A stretch of DNA of 10,901 bases, taken from contig PBOW01000027.1 in assembly GCA_002725365.1 (NCBI GenBank), positions 1 through 10,901 of the forward strand. The letters run 5' to 3'. Of this stretch, positions 1,582 through 10,024 are shown in pieces. A model generated the notes under the pieces. The model saw only the letters and a list, made by a program, of their open reading frames with translations, was not told the DNA's origin and did not search any database. Position 1 is the first letter of the stretch. Each line of letters opens with the position of its first letter. Source of the DNA: Chloroflexota bacterium. GTDB lineage: Bacteria > Chloroflexota > Dehalococcoidia > UBA2979. Made by a program: the position numbers and the translations under genes.

Positions 1582-2253
1582 CTAGCTGAGCTTTGACTGG
1601 AGATAATGGATTTGCAGGCTGATGTCCGGTCCAACATCTTTACCCGCTATGGTGAGACTATCAACAGGATCTGATACTGAGCTACCGAAAGCCCCCACAA
1701 ATGCGGTCAGGTTTTCATCTTCTTCACTATCGTAACCGTAAGGGATAACAACCGATGGATTGATCTCACGAACGGTCTTAACCATTATTTCTTGAGGTAT
1801 TGCTTCCGCTAGTCCGATTGGGCAAAGGATGACATCGGCGTTGGCGAAGAGCCCTTTACCTGTGGTAGGTAGAGCGTGTTTGAGACCACTTAAAATTCCT
1901 ATCGATATGCCTTCCAATTTAATGAGCCAAGAGGTACCACCGGCCACGGCCTGAATTGGCTCTGAATCGGCCTCAGTTTTAACGGTGGATTCAGAAGTCT
2001 TATAGCCCTCAACTTGCACTCCAGAGATTTCGTATTCTCCCGGCCGATCAAAAATAATAGGTGTTTGATTACCTGCTGGAGCTACTTGATCGTTCCCCGA
2101 TGAAAGTGGATCACCAGATCTGGAGTTCAATATGAGGTGTGCTTTGGGTCGACTCATTGTCCCGAAAGTTTTTTTGTCCCAAGGATCGATAATTACGGTC
2201 GCTTCCCGTCCACGAATTCTTACGGAACTATGACCAATCCAACTAATTTCCAC
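1582..2253 (-). CDS. MBL-fold protein lacking metal ligands (Lactamase_B_3-like, probable pseudoenzyme)
   Basis: A 223-residue protein of the small metallo-beta-lactamase-fold family related to UPF0173/Lactamase_B_3. It opens with the typical ISWIGHSSVRI and VIIDPWDK (residues 3-27), has PGEYEISGV (71-79), and a VVIPYGY near 168-174 where active relatives have VIPMHY. The metal-binding motif is gone: where relatives show SHxHxxH, this protein reads NSRSGDPL (43-50). The GDLGH motif has become SGLKH (122-126), keeping only the His. The His of IPMHY is Gly173. I infer it cannot bind the usual dinuclear metal centre, so its role may be structural or regulatory. It starts with GTG. A GAGGTG ribosome-binding site 4 nt upstream (2258-2263) supports this start. 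It is the last gene of the minus-strand cluster, 42 bp after the ketosynthase-like gene, and ends 2 bp from the convergent vWA gene. The fold family is fairly sure; the molecular role is unknown. Confidence 0.8.
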   Translation of the reverse strand: MEISWIGHSSVRIRGREATVIIDPWDKKTFGTMSRPKAHLILNSRSGDPLSSGNDQVAPAGNQTPIIFDRPGEYEISGVQVEGYKTSESTVKTEADSEPIQAVAGGTSWLIKLEGISIGILSGLKHALPTTGKGLFANADVILCPIGLAEAIPQEIMVKTVREINPSVVIPYGYDSEEDENLTAFVGAFGSSVSDPVDSLTIAGKDVGPDISLQIHYLQSKLS

Positions 2254-2295: not shown

Positions 2296-3585
2296 CTATA
2301 TATCTAGTTCTGGTATTGTTGCTTCGTCAGGGATATTGAAGTTTTCTGGAATCTGTCTCATCGCTGTCGGATCACAAATCGCGATTGTGGCATTTTGACT
2401 TCTATGGATCGAATTTATCATTACTACGCGCAGTGCGTCCGATCGTATTCCATTTGGATTAGCGTCCAAGTCAATATCTTCATCCTCGGTCTCCAAATTT
2501 CTAGTACTAGGGATCATTTGCTTGTTCATGGCCTCGAGTGTGATTGCCATGCTCAGAGGGCCTGAGGCGGCACCTAGATCACCAAAATGTGATTTCAAAG
2601 CAGGTGTATACATGTGATGCCTCGCCGCACTGCCGAACACTCGGTGGATTGCCTTCGCTTCATGAGCGTCATCTAATACACTCCCGTTCGCATCTAACAT
2701 GACAGCATCAACTTCCGATTGGATTCTCCCTGAGGCAATCAATGCTCCCTGAATTGCTCTTCCGATATAGATCGGGTCTGTGTCAGGAGAACCCTCTTTG
2801 CCAGGCGAGAAAGTGAGTGCGGATCCTTCAATTTCAGCTAGGATTTTGGCTCCTCGAGTCACAGCGACTTCGAGAGCTTCAAGCACAAATACTACGCTTC
2901 CTTCTGCCATAATGAAGCCGTCGCGGTCGTTTTCCAGAGGCCTGCTGGCAGATTCTGGGTTGTCATTGTGCTTCGTGGAAAGTAACCCCATCGACTCATT
3001 GATCTCAAAATTTCTGCGATCTATGCGAGCGTCGGTTGCGCCTGCAATTGCAACGAAGGCCCTCTTCCGTTTGATTAGTTCTGTCGCTTCAACGATGGCC
3101 TCGATACCACTCAAATGATCGCTGCTTAAAGGTATCACTGGTCCAGAGACACCCATCAACGCGGCAACCGAATGAGCTGAATGTATATTACTTTCGTCTG
3201 GAAGCTGAGATTCCGACTCAGTAAAAGGAGTGTTCGAGGTAATGACGCAAGCCACTTGACCACTGTTTTCCGGTGTAATGACCAAGCCGGCACTTTGTAC
3301 AGCGGACAGCGCGGCCGACACACTGTACCTTTGTGGTCTCTTAAGTTGATCATAGTATTCAGGCTTGAAGCGAGTATCTACTTGGTTCGATTCTGAAATT
3401 TCGCCTGCTACTCTACTTTTCAGGGTGCCAGTATCAAATCGGGTGATCGGCCTCAGACCACTCACATTATTTTCTAATGCCTGCCAAATTTCACCCAATG
3501 ATTTACCAAGGGGCGAAAGGATTCCAATTCCAGTTACAACAACCCTTGGTTCGTCTTGGAGTTCATATTGATTCTCTGTGACCAT
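2296..3585 (-). CDS. FabF-like beta-ketoacyl synthase without catalytic triad
   Basis: A 429-residue thiolase-fold protein of the KAS I/II family, slightly longer than typical FabF (about 410). Framework motifs are clear: RVVVTGIGILSPLG (14-27), SRPLENDRDGFIMAEGS (214-230), and ALKSHFGD (329-336). By spacing against E. coli FabF (C163, H303, K335, H340), the equivalent positions are His157, Asn300, Lys331 and Asp336. Only the Lys remains. The C-terminal gatekeeper loop SFGFGGTN is replaced by SIHRSQN (392-398). The protein should therefore not load or condense acyl chains by the normal Cys mechanism. Chain-length factors (KS-beta) of type II polyketide synthases are a known precedent for a ketosynthase-fold subunit without the active Cys, but no KS-alpha partner is visible here. 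The start is fixed: an in-frame stop at 3595-3597 precedes the ATG and no other start lies before the first motif. The ribosome-binding site is weak. It lies 33 bp downstream of fabH, so the two are probably co-transcribed. Confidence 0.88.
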   Translation of the reverse strand: MVTENQYELQDEPRVVVTGIGILSPLGKSLGEIWQALENNVSGLRPITRFDTGTLKSRVAGEISESNQVDTRFKPEYYDQLKRPQRYSVSAALSAVQSAGLVITPENSGQVACVITSNTPFTESESQLPDESNIHSAHSVAALMGVSGPVIPLSSDHLSGIEAIVEATELIKRKRAFVAIAGATDARIDRRNFEINESMGLLSTKHNDNPESASRPLENDRDGFIMAEGSVVFVLEALEVAVTRGAKILAEIEGSALTFSPGKEGSPDTDPIYIGRAIQGALIASGRIQSEVDAVMLDANGSVLDDAHEAKAIHRVFGSAARHHMYTPALKSHFGDLGAASGPLSMAITLEAMNKQMIPSTRNLETEDEDIDLDANPNGIRSDALRVVMINSIHRSQNATIAICDPTAMRQIPENFNIPDEATIPELDI

Positions 3586-3618: not shown

Positions 3619-4596
3619 TTATCCCCATTCGGTTAGTACCGCACCCCAATTCAATCCACCACCGAAGGCTACAAACAGGACTAAATCTCCTGGTTTGATC
3701 CTTCCATCACTGTTCGCCTCTGACAATGCGATTGGAATAGATGCTGATGAGGTGTTTCCGTAGCTTTGTACATTAGTGAAAGCTTTCTCCATTGGCAGCC
3801 CAAGTCTTTCCATGAGCGCCCGTATTATTCGTTCATTAGCTTGGTGCGGCACACATATTGTGATGTCAGAAGGTGATTTGTCAGCATTTTTCAAAGCCGA
3901 CTCAACAGCATCAGCCATTGCTCCGACCGCATATTTGAAAACAGCGGGGCCATCCATAATGATTTTGGCGTCCTCGGTAATGCCCTCAGAAGGAGAGGCA
4001 CATGGTCCCCATGCATACAGTAGATTTCCAGCTCCTCCGTCTGATCCGAGAAATGGCGGGAATACTTTCCCAGGTCCATCATCGCTGCCAGCCTCTAGCA
4101 CCACGGCTCCAGCGCCGTCACCAAAAAGTATGCAAGTGCCTCGGTCAGACCAATCGACAATTCGACTAAGTACCTCAGTACCAACGACTAACACTTTATT
4201 TGCTGTTCTTGCATGGATGAATTGTGCTGCGGAAGAGAACGCTGTGATGAAACCATTGCAGGCTGCGTTGATATCAAAAGCCCCACATTCGGCCCCAATT
4301 TGATGCTGAATTCTACTAGCCGTGGAGGGAAACATTCCATCTGGAGTACACGTGGCCGCGATAACCAAGTCGATCTCACTTGGATCTATATTAGCCACCC
4401 TCAGAGCATTCATAGCCGCAGCTGCTCCTAAAGAGCTTGAAGAATCTGCATCTCCCGCGATATGCCTGGACCTTATTCCTGTTCGCTCAACTATCCAGTC
4501 ATCACTGGTATCAACTAATTCCGAGAGCTCTTCGTTGGTTAGGATACGTTCTGGTAAAGAATGTCCGTATCCGGCTACTCGACAAGAGAAGGACAT
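3619..4596 (-). CDS. fabH: Beta-ketoacyl-ACP synthase III (KAS III)
   Basis: FabH starts type II fatty acid synthesis by condensing an acyl-CoA primer with malonyl-ACP. At 325 residues the protein has normal family length. The catalytic triad is complete: Cys113 in NAACNGF, His251 in PHQAN and Asn281 in YGNTSSAS. The N-terminal DDWIVERTGI (32-41), the central LFGDGAGAVVLE (157-168) and the C-terminal FGGGLNWGA (311-319) are typical. A strong ribosome-binding site (AAGGAG) sits 7 nt before the ATG, which supports the start. It lies 29 bp after the sigma factor gene and 33 bp before the FabF-like gene. No acpP, fabD or fabG is nearby, so this is not a standard fab cluster. A close KAS III relative with another primer or product (such as 3-oxoacyl-ACP synthase III of a specialised pathway) cannot be excluded from sequence alone. 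Confidence 0.93.
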   Translation of the reverse strand: MSFSCRVAGYGHSLPERILTNEELSELVDTSDDWIVERTGIRSRHIAGDADSSSSLGAAAAMNALRVANIDPSEIDLVIAATCTPDGMFPSTASRIQHQIGAECGAFDINAACNGFITAFSSAAQFIHARTANKVLVVGTEVLSRIVDWSDRGTCILFGDGAGAVVLEAGSDDGPGKVFPPFLGSDGGAGNLLYAWGPCASPSEGITEDAKIIMDGPAVFKYAVGAMADAVESALKNADKSPSDITICVPHQANERIIRALMERLGLPMEKAFTNVQSYGNTSSASIPIALSEANSDGRIKPGDLVLFVAFGGGLNWGAVLTEWG

Positions 4597-4625: not shown

Positions 4626-5162
4626 CTATTGAATGTCCGATTCAAGTATAGCTTCAAGCGCTTTGAGTGTACGACGGTTGAGCTGCTTAATGGCACCCTC
4701 TGTTTTATTTAGATGCTTGCCTATCTGGGCATTTGTTAATCCCTGCGTATATTTCATGGTTATAAGGGATTGTTGACTTCCAGATAAAGACGATACTGCA
4801 GCCCGCAACTCGTTTAATTGTTCATGTTTTTCTGCCAAAGTTTCGGCACTAGGTGTGGTGATCGCGAGCGACTCCTGGTCTTCCAGCGATCCTAGGATTG
4901 GTTTCCGCCCTGTATCTCGATACCAATTTGCTAGCTGATTGTGTGCAATTGTCATTACCCAACCTTGAAAAGCTGTCTGTCCGCTTCCATTGAAAGTTGA
5001 TAGGGCTGAGAAGGCTCGCAGAAAAATTGTTGAAACTAATTCCTCTGCGATATCGGCTGTAGGAGTTCTCGAGAGCAAATACCGGTATACCCGAGGGGCT
5101 AGTGTTTCATAAAGAACAGAGAAAGCATCTTCAGATTCTGCGAGATCGAGATTATTCGTCAT
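4626..5162 (-). CDS. ECF-type RNA polymerase sigma factor
   Basis: Small sigma-70 family factor with only regions 2 and 4, which direct RNA polymerase to a specific promoter set. Region 2 covers AFSVLYETLAPRVYRYLLSR through WVMTIAHNQLANWYRDTGR; region 4 is the helix-turn-helix around YTQGLTNAQIGKHLNKTEGAIKQ near the C-terminus. I chose the ATG at 5162 (178 residues). The frame is open further to a TTG at 5213, which would add 17 residues that do not look like the domain. Neither start has a good ribosome-binding site. A TATACT box 7 nt before the ATG would allow a leaderless mRNA. It is divergent from hrcA and is the first gene of the cluster with fabH, the FabF-like gene and the MBL-fold gene. 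No anti-sigma factor gene is visible beside it. Family is sure; target promoters are unknown. Confidence 0.88.
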   Translation of the reverse strand: MTNNLDLAESEDAFSVLYETLAPRVYRYLLSRTPTADIAEELVSTIFLRAFSALSTFNGSGQTAFQGWVMTIAHNQLANWYRDTGRKPILGSLEDQESLAITTPSAETLAEKHEQLNELRAAVSSLSGSQQSLITMKYTQGLTNAQIGKHLNKTEGAIKQLNRRTLKALEAILESDIQ

Positions 5163-5169
5163 ATCAGCA

Positions 5170-5175
5170 AGTATA
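5170..5175 (-). promoter_or_regulatory. Possible -10 box for leaderless sigma factor transcript
   Basis: TATACT on the minus strand ends 7 nt before the ATG at 5162, so the expected transcription start falls on or next to the first codon. No convincing -35 hexamer lies 16-18 bp upstream. The call rests on one hexamer plus the missing ribosome-binding site, and is tentative. Confidence 0.3.
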
Positions 5176-5223
5176 AAGTTAAATAATTTCCCGGAAGGTA
5201 TTTCGGATGTCAAATTTGAGCAA

Positions 5224-5256: not shown

Positions 5257-5283
5257 TTAGCACTCTCCAGCTGAGAGTGCTAA
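5257..5283. promoter_or_regulatory. CIRCE operator (HrcA binding site)
   Basis: Perfect match to the CIRCE consensus: TTAGCACTC (5257-5265), 9-nt spacer, GAGTGCTAA (5275-5283). Complementarity continues two bases outward (AA/TT) and two bases inward (TC/GA), giving 13-bp arms at 5255-5267 and 5273-5285 around a 5-nt centre. HrcA dimers bind this site and block transcription until heat shock. It sits 57 bp before hrcA and overlaps the predicted transcription start. It is also 94 bp from the divergent sigma factor ATG, so effects on that gene are possible but unproven. Confidence 0.97.
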
Positions 5284-6977: not shown

Positions 6978-8873
6978 ATGGCGCGTGTCATTGGAATTGA
7001 CTTAGGAACTACGAACTCATGTGTTGCAGTAATGGAAGCCGGTGAGGCACGAGTGATCGAAAACTCTGAAGGTGGTAGGACTACCCCTTCGGTTGTGGCG
7101 GAGGCTAAAGACGGTGAACGACTGGTAGGTACGGTTGCAAAGAGGCAGGCAGTGACCAATTCAGACAACACTCTTTATTCCGTGAAAAGATTGATGGGAA
7201 GAAAATTCGAAGATGAGGAGACTAGTCGTTTGATGTCGGTTGCCTCGTTTGAGGTGACTAATCGCGATAATGGTGATGCAGGTGTGGAGATGGGTGACAA
7301 AAACTACAGTCCGCCGGAAATCAGCGCGATGATACTTGGCAAACTCAAAGCGGATGCAGAATCGTATTTGGGTGAAGATGTTTCCGAAGCTGTAATAACG
7401 GTCCCCGCCTACTTTAATGATGCCCAGAGGCAGGCTACTAGAGATGCTGGGAGAATCGCTGGTCTTGAAGTGTTGAGGATAATTAACGAACCGACCGCAG
7501 CCTCCCTCGCCTATGGTCTGGGTGAGGATGCCTCCGATCAAACTATCGCGGTGTACGATTTAGGAGGGGGCACCTTCGATATCTCAGTATTAGAGATAGG
7601 TGATGGTGCTTTTGAAGTTAAAGCGACAAACGGTGACACGTTTTTAGGCGGTGATGATTTCGACAATGTGCTGATTATGGATTTGACGGCTGAATTCAAA
7701 AAGGAACAGGGTATAGATCTTTCGGAAGACCGAGCAGCGTTGCAGAGATTAAAAGAAGCCGCCGAGAAGGCAAAGATAGAACTCTCGTCTGCTCAGCAGA
7801 CCGAGGTCAACCTTCCATTTATTACTGCTGATGCTTCAGGTCCAAAACATTTGGTTAGAAGTATTTCTCGTAGTTATTTCGAGAAATTAACTGACGAATT
7901 AGTCGCTCAATCACTCGTGCCTGTGAAACAGGCACTAGATGACGCGGGTCTTCAGCCATCTCAGATTGACGAGGTTGTACTCGTTGGTGGCCAGACGAGG
8001 ATGCCGTTGGTTCAGAAGCGCATTGAGGAATTTTTTGGAAAAGAACCGCACCGTGGCGTTAATCCTGACGAAGTCGTGGCTATGGGAGCGGCGATTCAGG
8101 CCGGAGTGCTTAAGGGGGACGTCAAAGATATGTTGCTCCTTGATGTAACCCCCCTGACCTTAGGGATAGAAACTCTAGGTGGGGTAATGACACCGTTGAT
8201 TCAACGGAACACTACTATTCCAACGAGCAAGAGTGAAACATTTTCCACTGCGGCTGACAATCAGCCTCAGGTTGATGTGCATGTGCTTCAAGGTGAACGA
8301 CCAATGGCCACAGACAATAAAACTATGGGGAGATTTGCACTGGATGGCATCCTGCCCGCTCCACGAGGAGTTCCGCAGATTGAGGTCACTTTTGATATCG
8401 ATGCAAACGGCATAGTTAAAGTTTCGGCTAAGGATAAGGCAACCAGCAAGGAGCAGCACATCACTATTGAATCGTCCTCCGGCTTAACTGATGAGGAAGT
8501 GGAGAGACTTACGAAAGAAGCCGAGGAATATGCCGAGGAGGACGCAAAGAAGAAAGCGGTGATTGAAACAAGAAATAAGGCAGACACGTTAACGTACTCT
8601 GCTGAGAAATTGATAGAAGACAATAAAGAGATCGTCACTCAAGATCAGCGGGAACAAGTTGAAAGTTCGGTCAGTGAAGTCAGGGATGCTCTTGAGTCCG
8701 AAAATGACGAGAAAATAATTGCGACTACCAATGCTTTAGAGGCACTGTTGCAGGAAATTGGTCAGGCAGTTTACACAGCACAGGCAGCGCAAAATGCCCC
8801 GGGAGAGACAACAGAAGCTGATACTTCTCCGGATAATGATGATACGATCGAGGGCGAGTTTCGTGAAGTTTAA
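6978..8873 (+). CDS. dnaK: Molecular chaperone DnaK (Hsp70)
   Basis: ATP-driven Hsp70 chaperone. The 631-residue length is normal for bacterial DnaK. The nucleotide-binding domain shows GIDLGTTNS (6-14), Lys70 in VKRLMGR, NEPTAA (170-175), and DLGGGTFD with Thr199; Lys70, Glu171 and Thr199 keep the same numbers as in E. coli. [10 protein letters not shown] (334-343) follows. The interdomain linker is LLLDVTPL (386-393), and the substrate-binding domain contains the ERPMATDNK stretch and the strand [14 protein letters not shown] (473-486). The lid is helical and the tail ends in IEGEFREV, the usual acidic ending. AAGGA (6963-6967) is 10 nt before the ATG. No key residue is missing. It works with GrpE (upstream) and DnaJ (32 bp downstream) and should be controlled by HrcA/CIRCE. 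Confidence 0.98.
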
Positions 8874-8905
8874 ATCAGCTTGTTAGTTGGCTCGAGGTGA
8901 GATAA

Positions 8906-10024
8906 ATGTCGAGTGCTCCGGACCTATACGAAACACTTGGGGTGGACCGTGGCGCCTCATCTTCGGACATCAAGAAAGCTTATAGACAGCTTGCAAAAGA
9001 ATTTCATCCGGATGTTAATCAATCTTCCGGCGCTGAAGTAAGATTCAAAGAAGTATCGGCCGCCTACGAAGTATTATCGGACCCGGAAAAACGACAACAG
9101 TATGATCGATTTGGGCACGCAGGAGTGGGAAATTCGGGTGCTCAAGGATTCGATGGTGCTGGGTTCGGTGGATTTGGTGATATTTTTGATTCATTCTTTA
9201 GATCTACCGGTGCACGTCGGAGTGGTCCTCAGCAGGGTGCAGACTTACGAACTGTTATTGAAATCGATCTTGAAGATGTGTTGGATGGAGTTGAGCACGA
9301 GCTGAAATTTTCGCGAGTAATCCGATGTCAGCCTTGTAAGGGGTACGGTGAAGCCGATGGTGCAAATCGTCCTAGTTGTGGTGATTGCAGTGGGACCGGA
9401 GAAATCAGACAAGTTCAGAGATCCTTATTTGGACAATTTGTGAATGTAACTGTTTGCGGGGCTTGTCGAGGAGAAGGAACTCGAGTTGTCAGTCCCTGCA
9501 CTGACTGTGATGGAACAGGACTGGTCGAGTCAGATGTAGAGCGAATCGTATCAATTCCAGCTGGCATTGACACTGGTGAAACTTTGCGAATTCGTGGAGA
9601 AGGTGATCAAGGTCCGCGGGGTGCCGAACCAGGGAATCTGTATGCTGAAATCAAAGTGCGTGAGCATTCCAAGTTCATGAGGTATGGAAGAGATTTGGTT
9701 ACGGAGTGCGAGCTGAATATGGTCGAGGCGAGTCTGGGCGCGAAGCTTGATGTCATTACTTTGAGCGGTGAATCAGTTGCGTTGGATTTGGATCCAGGGG
9801 TGCAATCAGGAGCCCGACAGGTATTAAAAGGCCACGGTGTCCCGGACCTCCGAGGCAGAGCCAGGGGTGATCTTTATTTGCAGGTGCGTGTTGTGACACC
9901 TACAAGTTTGACCGCGCGTCAGCAAGATCTGATAAGAGAATTGGGAGAATCACTCACCGATGCACATCGCCCAGACGATGCAGGTTCAATGTTCGATCGT
10001 ATAAGGTCCGTTTTCGGATCTTGA
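8906..10024 (+). CDS. dnaJ: Co-chaperone DnaJ (type I Hsp40)
   Basis: DnaJ delivers unfolded substrates to DnaK and stimulates its ATPase. The 372 residues show the complete type I layout: J domain (6-70) with HPD at 34-36, a Gly/Phe-rich linker (about 70-100), four CxxCxGxG zinc motifs with cysteines at 141/144, 158/161, 184/187 and 198/201, and the two C-terminal beta domains including GDLYLQVRV (321-329). A good ribosome-binding site, GAGGTGA (8894-8900), sits 5 nt before the ATG. It is the fourth gene of the operon and ends 11 bp before prmA. Nothing is unusual in the sequence. Confidence 0.97.
   Translation: MSSAPDLYETLGVDRGASSSDIKKAYRQLAKEFHPDVNQSSGAEVRFKEVSAAYEVLSDPEKRQQYDRFGHAGVGNSGAQGFDGAGFGGFGDIFDSFFRSTGARRSGPQQGADLRTVIEIDLEDVLDGVEHELKFSRVIRCQPCKGYGEADGANRPSCGDCSGTGEIRQVQRSLFGQFVNVTVCGACRGEGTRVVSPCTDCDGTGLVESDVERIVSIPAGIDTGETLRIRGEGDQGPRGAEPGNLYAEIKVREHSKFMRYGRDLVTECELNMVEASLGAKLDVITLSGESVALDLDPGVQSGARQVLKGHGVPDLRGRARGDLYLQVRVVTPTSLTARQQDLIRELGESLTDAHRPDDAGSMFDRIRSVFGS

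Follow-up and report, generated by a model that had tools for sequence, protein, structure and literature searches.

KSx, a FabF-family protein without the catalytic cysteine encoded next to fabH in Chloroflexota: a putative non-catalytic ketosynthase subunit

Chain-length factors (CLF, KS-beta) are proteins of the FabF fold without the catalytic cysteine, at whose position they usually carry glutamine, and decarboxylases of the KSQ type possess glutamine at the same position together with both catalytic histidines. A further FabF-like protein without this cysteine, an absence shared with CLF, is encoded at positions 2296-3585 on the minus strand of the stretch of DNA analysed here (termed the window, i.e., the 10,901 nucleotides from position 1 to 10,901 of contig PBOW01000027.1, GenBank assembly GCA_002725365.1, of a Chloroflexota bacterium of the class Dehalococcoidia); the name KSx is used for this gene as well as for its clade. 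According to the respective publications, KS-CLF pairs, including ApeO-ApeC, are ketosynthase-fold heterodimers (PMC8358021, PMC6638757), and PqsB, which lacks all three catalytic residues of FabH, forms a heterodimer with the catalytic subunit in PqsBC of Pseudomonas (PMC4807248).

The KSx of the window resembles PqsB in combining the ketosynthase fold with the absence of all three catalytic residues; PqsB, however, is FabH-like, whereas KSx is FabF-like, such that the partner of KSx, if any, would be FabF or, outside its own subfamily, FabH. With FabF (KAS II), KSx shares the thiolase fold and both ketoacyl-synthase domains, and its best sequence matches among solved structures are canonical FabF proteins. 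Differing from FabF, KSx possesses neither the nucleophile nor the GFGG gate loop nor Asp265, and in the window both histidines are missing as well, the gate loop is shortened, and the patch contacting the acyl carrier protein (ACP) is mostly gone. Concerning CLF, the profile score of KSx against the single CLF identified among the matches listed (1tqy_B) amounts to 154.7 bits vs. 284.3 bits against FabF, glutamine is found at the cysteine column in none of 67 KSx sequences, and the neighbouring ketosynthase is a KAS III and not a KS-alpha, canonical fabF genes being situated on other contigs. Descent from CLF is tentatively disfavoured by the lower score to this one CLF; the chain-length-factor-like subunit proposed in an earlier, sequence-only reading of the window thus holds as a functional analogy, whereas the higher score to FabF and the KAS III neighbour speak against more than that. 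The replaced cysteine, and the retention of both histidines in the majority of KSx sequences, recall the KSQ decarboxylases, from which KSx differs by the absence of glutamine, the mostly lost ACP patch and, in the window, the missing histidine pair. By analogy, KSx may work like CLF or PqsB, while membership in those families was not supported by the tests made. Among the papers listed in literature searches, as judged from titles and the beginnings of abstracts, no account of KSx or of a cysteine-less FabF in Chloroflexota was found.

The KSx protein and its lost catalytic centre

The following features are relevant for KSx (codon coordinates by arithmetic; FabF residues are numbered as in the E. 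coli protein, with the first residue uncounted and the sequence taken from NC_000913):

2296..3585, minus strand: KSx, FabF-fold protein without nucleophile, 429 amino acids (open reading frame, Pfam domains, fold model, alignment)
3115..3117, minus strand: codon of His157, equivalent of FabF Cys163 (MAFFT alignment)
2692..2694, minus strand: codon of Asp298, equivalent of FabF His303 (MAFFT and HMMER alignments)
2593..2595, minus strand: codon of Lys331, equivalent of FabF Lys335, retained (alignment)
2578..2580, minus strand: codon of Asp336, equivalent of FabF His340 (alignment)
2398..2409, minus strand: residues 393-396 (IHRS), replacing the GFGG gate loop and one residue shorter (alignment)

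The reading frame of KSx begins with ATG and contains no internal stop, and the window is free of N. Both FabF-type Pfam domains (PF00109 and PF02801) are present; PF08541 and PF08545 are not matched. The fold model is confident and FabF-like, with FabF as best structure match and the fold shared over the whole length; the score against the NCBIfam model fabF (TIGR03150) is 226.9 bits and lies below the equivalog cut-off of 493.75.

The residues Cys, His, Lys, and His occupy the catalytic columns in all 91 reference FabF rows (E. coli FabF, 36 open reading frames from loci of the class, and the 54 proteins P0068-P0121), such that the replacements in the window are not due to chance. That all three catalytic residues are replaced, as the sequence-only reading had claimed, was confirmed, the window having His/Asp/Asp in their places. 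In the MAFFT alignment, Cys163 corresponds to His157, His340 to Asp336, and the retained lysine to Lys331, as proposed, whereas Asn300, put forward as the equivalent of His303, was two positions off: the true equivalent is Asp298, in the MAFFT alignment as well as in HMMER alignments to FabF of B. subtilis and Synechocystis, which are free of gaps around His303. The GFGG gatekeeper loop is gone, again as stated before, with His-Arg in place of Gly399-Phe400 and column 401 deleted. At the ACP-docking positions Lys65, Arg68, Lys69, Arg127, Lys128, and Arg206, the window exhibits Glu, Asp, Gln, a gap, a further gap, and Gly, respectively.

A protein search, in which 7998 candidates were scored, yielded 66 relatives of KSx (E <= 5.8e-66, 42-97% identity) among the best 120 of 632 matches, in which, after a gap, FabF-type proteins start at E >= 6.0e-50. 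In the family alignment (A1, 67 rows including the KSx of the window), the nucleophile column contains Ser (39 rows), Ala (17), Tyr (5), His (2), Gly (2), and Thr (2), and Cys in none of the 67. Both histidines are kept in 47 of the 65 rows tested, whereas both are lost in 14 and His303 alone in 4. The aligned homologues share the missing cysteine throughout, whereas only the 14 rows, the window's genus among them, lack all three catalytic residues. At the column of His303, histidine is found in 48 of the 66 rows having a letter; since at least five changes at His303 and at least three at His340 are required on a quick tree of the family, the losses are recurrent. Of the 65 rows having a letter at Lys335, 62 retain the lysine. 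Asp265 is replaced by Ser in 67 of 67 rows, column 401 is empty in all of them (two being truncated there), and Ile108 is replaced by Arg in 48 of 67.

Concerning the ACP contacts, for which the FabF residues were taken from PMC7138838, Lys65 is kept in 6 of 66 rows, Asp is the most frequent residue at position 68 (33 rows), and Arg206 is replaced by Gly in 55 of 67. Columns 127-132 fall into a low-confidence loop (residues 122-129 of the model) and are poorly aligned, with gaps in 13 to 15 KSx rows, such that the argument rests on positions 65, 68, 69, and 206. Docking of ACP in the manner of FabF is, from these residues, very probably absent. The framework conserved among the references is retained at 56 of 107 positions (about half). 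Judged from the alignment, the hallmark of the KSx family is that cysteine, acyl gate, and ACP patch are lost, rather than all three catalytic residues.

Selection, distribution, and descent

Thirteen loci (L005, L036-L047) served for the pairwise determination of the ratio of nonsynonymous to synonymous substitutions (omega, Nei-Gojobori) in KSx; for the 14 pairs of highest similarity, four other genes were compared as well. For the ten closest pairs, omega of KSx ranges between 0.076 and 0.132, vs. 0.042-0.070 for FabH; the KSx values are within the range of HrcA and of the metallo-beta-lactamase-fold protein encoded downstream (MBL, see below) and somewhat above those of FabH. The remaining four of the 14 pairs (75-76% identity, dS 0.70-1.03) exhibit KSx values of 0.173-0.247. 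In the window's genus, the pair L036-L037, in which both members lack the three catalytic residues, has an omega of 0.083 at a dS of 0.87. With omega far below 1, KSx is a working gene under purifying selection despite its lost catalytic residues. A decaying pseudogene is contradicted by these ratios, and the complete, non-decaying gene assumed in the sequence-only reading is borne out.

Within the class, KSx was found at E <= 1e-60 in 15 of 393 genomes (the window's own included), all belonging to the family of the window, and among the first 24 genomes of this family (G000-G023) in 7, again including its own. In a scan of 400 genomes of the phylum with a less divergent query (P0026), 149 passed E 1e-60, such that this threshold does not discriminate there; a score at the level of the family was reached in the window's own genome only (2.5e-119, the next being 4.7e-73), and the best matches outside it (L145 and L146) possess the cysteine. 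One scan of viral contigs revealed no relative of KSx. In trees, KSx forms one side of a branch, and its presence requires 5 changes on the FabH tree; a single origin followed by several losses is therefore the simplest reading of these trees.

The source assembly (1.49 Mb, 97 contigs, 76.5% complete; the window lies in its contig C77) contains two FabF proteins with the intact Cys-His-His, on contigs other than that of KSx, as well as an ACP and an acyltransferase domain on contig C47. Because of this equipment, ordinary elongation seems to be independent of KSx.

A distant match (L013) led to a second family without the cysteine, termed KSy, with at least 117 proteins (P0122-P0238, from the best 120 of 1357 matches) and the following example:

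8527-9687 of locus L139: KSy gene (search)

In KSy, 115 rows have a letter at the nucleophile column, which is Ala in 114 of them; column 401 is empty and His303 replaced in 117 of 117, His340 is kept in 113 of 117, and columns 127, 128, 131, and 132 are empty in all 117. KSy was found at E <= 1e-60 in 6 of the 393 class genomes, all of a family other than that of the window, and FabH adjoins it in two of these six (G072 and G212). KSx and KSy group together in the tree (98/94), while the alternative tree, KSx with canonical FabF, was not rejected (p-AU 0.38); a common origin of KSx and KSy is supported by the tree, though not decisively. In genome G038, KSy (within the region 5500-12000 of L119) is not situated beside fabH, and its neighbours were read as a P450, an enoyl-CoA hydratase, and an NDP-forming acyl-CoA synthetase (names by reading). 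A third cysteine-less group (P0239-P0241) has Gly at the cysteine and Tyr at His303 and keeps the GFGG loop.

The genes around KSx

KSx is part of an apparent operon on the minus strand, in which the sigma factor, FabH, KSx, and MBL are encoded in this order, spaced by 29, 33, and 42 bp:

4626..5213, minus strand: ECF-type factor of the sigma-70 family, opening the apparent operon, with fabH following after 29 bp (family search)
3619..4596, minus strand: FabH (KAS III), triad intact, 33 bp upstream of KSx (family search, alignment)
1582..2253, minus strand: MBL, metallo-beta-lactamase-fold protein with lost metal motifs, 42 bp downstream of KSx (family search, alignment, model)
5257..5283, no strand: perfect CIRCE inverted repeat between the divergent operons (pattern match)

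The operon diverges from hrcA-grpE-dnaK-dnaJ-prmA, five genes named by reading the sequence and not by family search. The repeat at 5257-5283 matches the CIRCE consensus perfectly, and 39 of the 143 loci fetched, overlapping ones being counted, contain an exact copy of CIRCE. Scans for promoters and terminators gave matches at chance level only. Apart from E. coli, all 34 FabH rows (with some genomes represented twice) have an intact catalytic triad Cys-His-Asn, which is also present in the FabH of the window, such that a conserved ketosynthase, non-catalytic by its residues, does stand beside an intact FabH, as initially described.

For gene order, 15 KSx loci of 25 fetched were considered, ten loci (L051-L060, 26-33% identity) being excluded. 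MBL follows directly downstream of KSx in 15 of 15 loci, and FabH directly precedes KSx in 12 of the 13 with upstream sequence, the exception being L050. The gene of the sigma factor was not detected by tblastn at the locus in L043, L044, L045, and L050; fabH, KSx, and MBL persist in the first three of these, and KSx and MBL in L050. In genomes of the family without KSx, fabH and MBL lie side by side (L120, L121, and L126) or adjoin each other with MBL inverted (L125). In three other families (L122-L124), a bioY-like gene (named by reading) is situated between fabH and MBL, in the slot of KSx.

In an alignment of 17 MBL proteins, the motifs SHDHPxHN, GDLGH, and IPMHY are present in all three rows from other families. 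In the remaining 14 rows, of which 11 stem from beside KSx and 3 from KSx-free genomes of the family, GDLGH and the histidine of IPMHY are missing, and HxH is retained in two of them. In a wider alignment, L116 (another family) is intact, L112 (a further family) has partly lost the motifs, and L115 (the window's family, without KSx) has histidine at the last motif. The model of the window's MBL is MBL-like (pLDDT 83), with 1vjn as best structure match; MBL is likely a second pseudoenzyme in the operon.

Putative role of KSx

Taking these sequence comparisons together, KSx is probably a FabF-family pseudoenzyme that acts by protein-protein contact, as a subunit which scaffolds or regulates a genuine condensing enzyme. 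It retains the thiolase fold with a rebuilt acyl gate and lacks the cysteine for forming an acyl-enzyme; in the rows keeping both histidines, a thioester may be bound, or the pair may serve the structure alone. As main partner, FabH can tentatively be named first, by gene order, and the housekeeping FabF second, by kinship, as a less likely candidate for a CLF-like heterodimer. That the sigma factor, FabH, KSx, and MBL constitute a fatty-acid initiation complex under a stress control linked to HrcA and CIRCE, with FabH as its one catalytic enzyme and KSx and MBL as pseudoenzymes holding or gating it, is a rather doubtful extension.

Several observations weigh against a subunit role. FabH occurs without KSx in 8 of the 24 family genomes G000-G023 and hence does not need it, and four of the six KSy genomes carry FabH on a contig other than that of KSy. 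Genome G739 (locus L050) possesses KSx, MBL, and four FabF matches, and no FabH was found in it at E <= 1e-40; this absence may be an assembly gap, but fabH is not found at its usual place either, and this genome argues against an exclusive partnership with FabH. The synteny with fabH to be checked after the sequence-only reading therefore holds for most KSx loci, but is not universal. Covariation of branch rates between KSx and FabH is weak (Pearson 0.35, Spearman 0.14; 21 branches, 12 taxa), although the partial correlation of pairwise distances is 0.71 for KSx-FabH vs. 0.39 for KSx-MBL (13 taxa, pairs non-independent), and the retention of the histidine pair and of Lys335 in most rows is unexplained if the pocket is idle.

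An unlikely alternative is a sensor binding coenzyme A or another ligand, alone or with the degenerate MBL, and unrelated to FabH catalysis, the gene order being historical. The constant presence of MBL downstream of KSx, the missing FabH at L050 and in its genome, the loss of the metal motifs in the same bacterial family, and the CIRCE-type repeat upstream would suit such a sensor, but MBL is degenerate whether KSx is present or not and is found in many KSx-free genomes, and a ligand site was not identified. A KSQ-type decarboxylase acting on malonyl thioesters is an improbable role for KSx, which would then make acetyl starters by means of the two histidines and the lysine, with Ser, Ala, or another residue for the cysteine: the histidine pair (47/65), Lys335 (62/65), and the usual position beside the initiating enzyme FabH would fit, whereas 14 of 65 rows, that of the window among them, lack both histidines under purifying selection, the ACP-docking residues are mostly lost or reversed in charge, the gate loop bears a deletion, and none of the 67 rows has the glutamine typical of KSQ. 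Retained catalysis by means of Ser or a different nucleophile, e.g., as an acyltransferase, is very improbable, since Ser, although commonest at the nucleophile column (39/67), shares it with Ala (17 rows), Gly (2), and Tyr, His, or Thr (9), the sister family KSy has Ala almost throughout, and the loop by the active site bears the deletion. That KSx is what remains of a decaying second copy of fabF, for which the progressive loss of catalytic residues and the several genomes with retained flanking genes but without KSx might be adduced, is extremely improbable in view of the low omega in the ten closest pairs, the long open frames at the KSx loci, the persistence as a single clade, and the confident FabF-like fold model.

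Non-catalytic ketosynthase subunits are so far known from specialised pathways (CLF, PqsB). A dead FabF under strong selection throughout its clade, usually sharing an operon with fabH, whose product initiates ordinary fatty-acid synthesis, would extend this subunit principle to the primary metabolism of uncultured Chloroflexota. As KSx parts the lost functions (nucleophile, gate, and ACP docking) from the kept fold, it offers a direct test of the ketosynthase fold without catalysis. Some sources name members of KSx '3-oxoacyl-[acyl-carrier-protein] synthase II', which would mislead the reconstruction of pathways. If true, a FabH gated by two pseudoenzymes would constitute a KAS complex of a new, regulated kind that brings the FabF and FabH subfamilies together.
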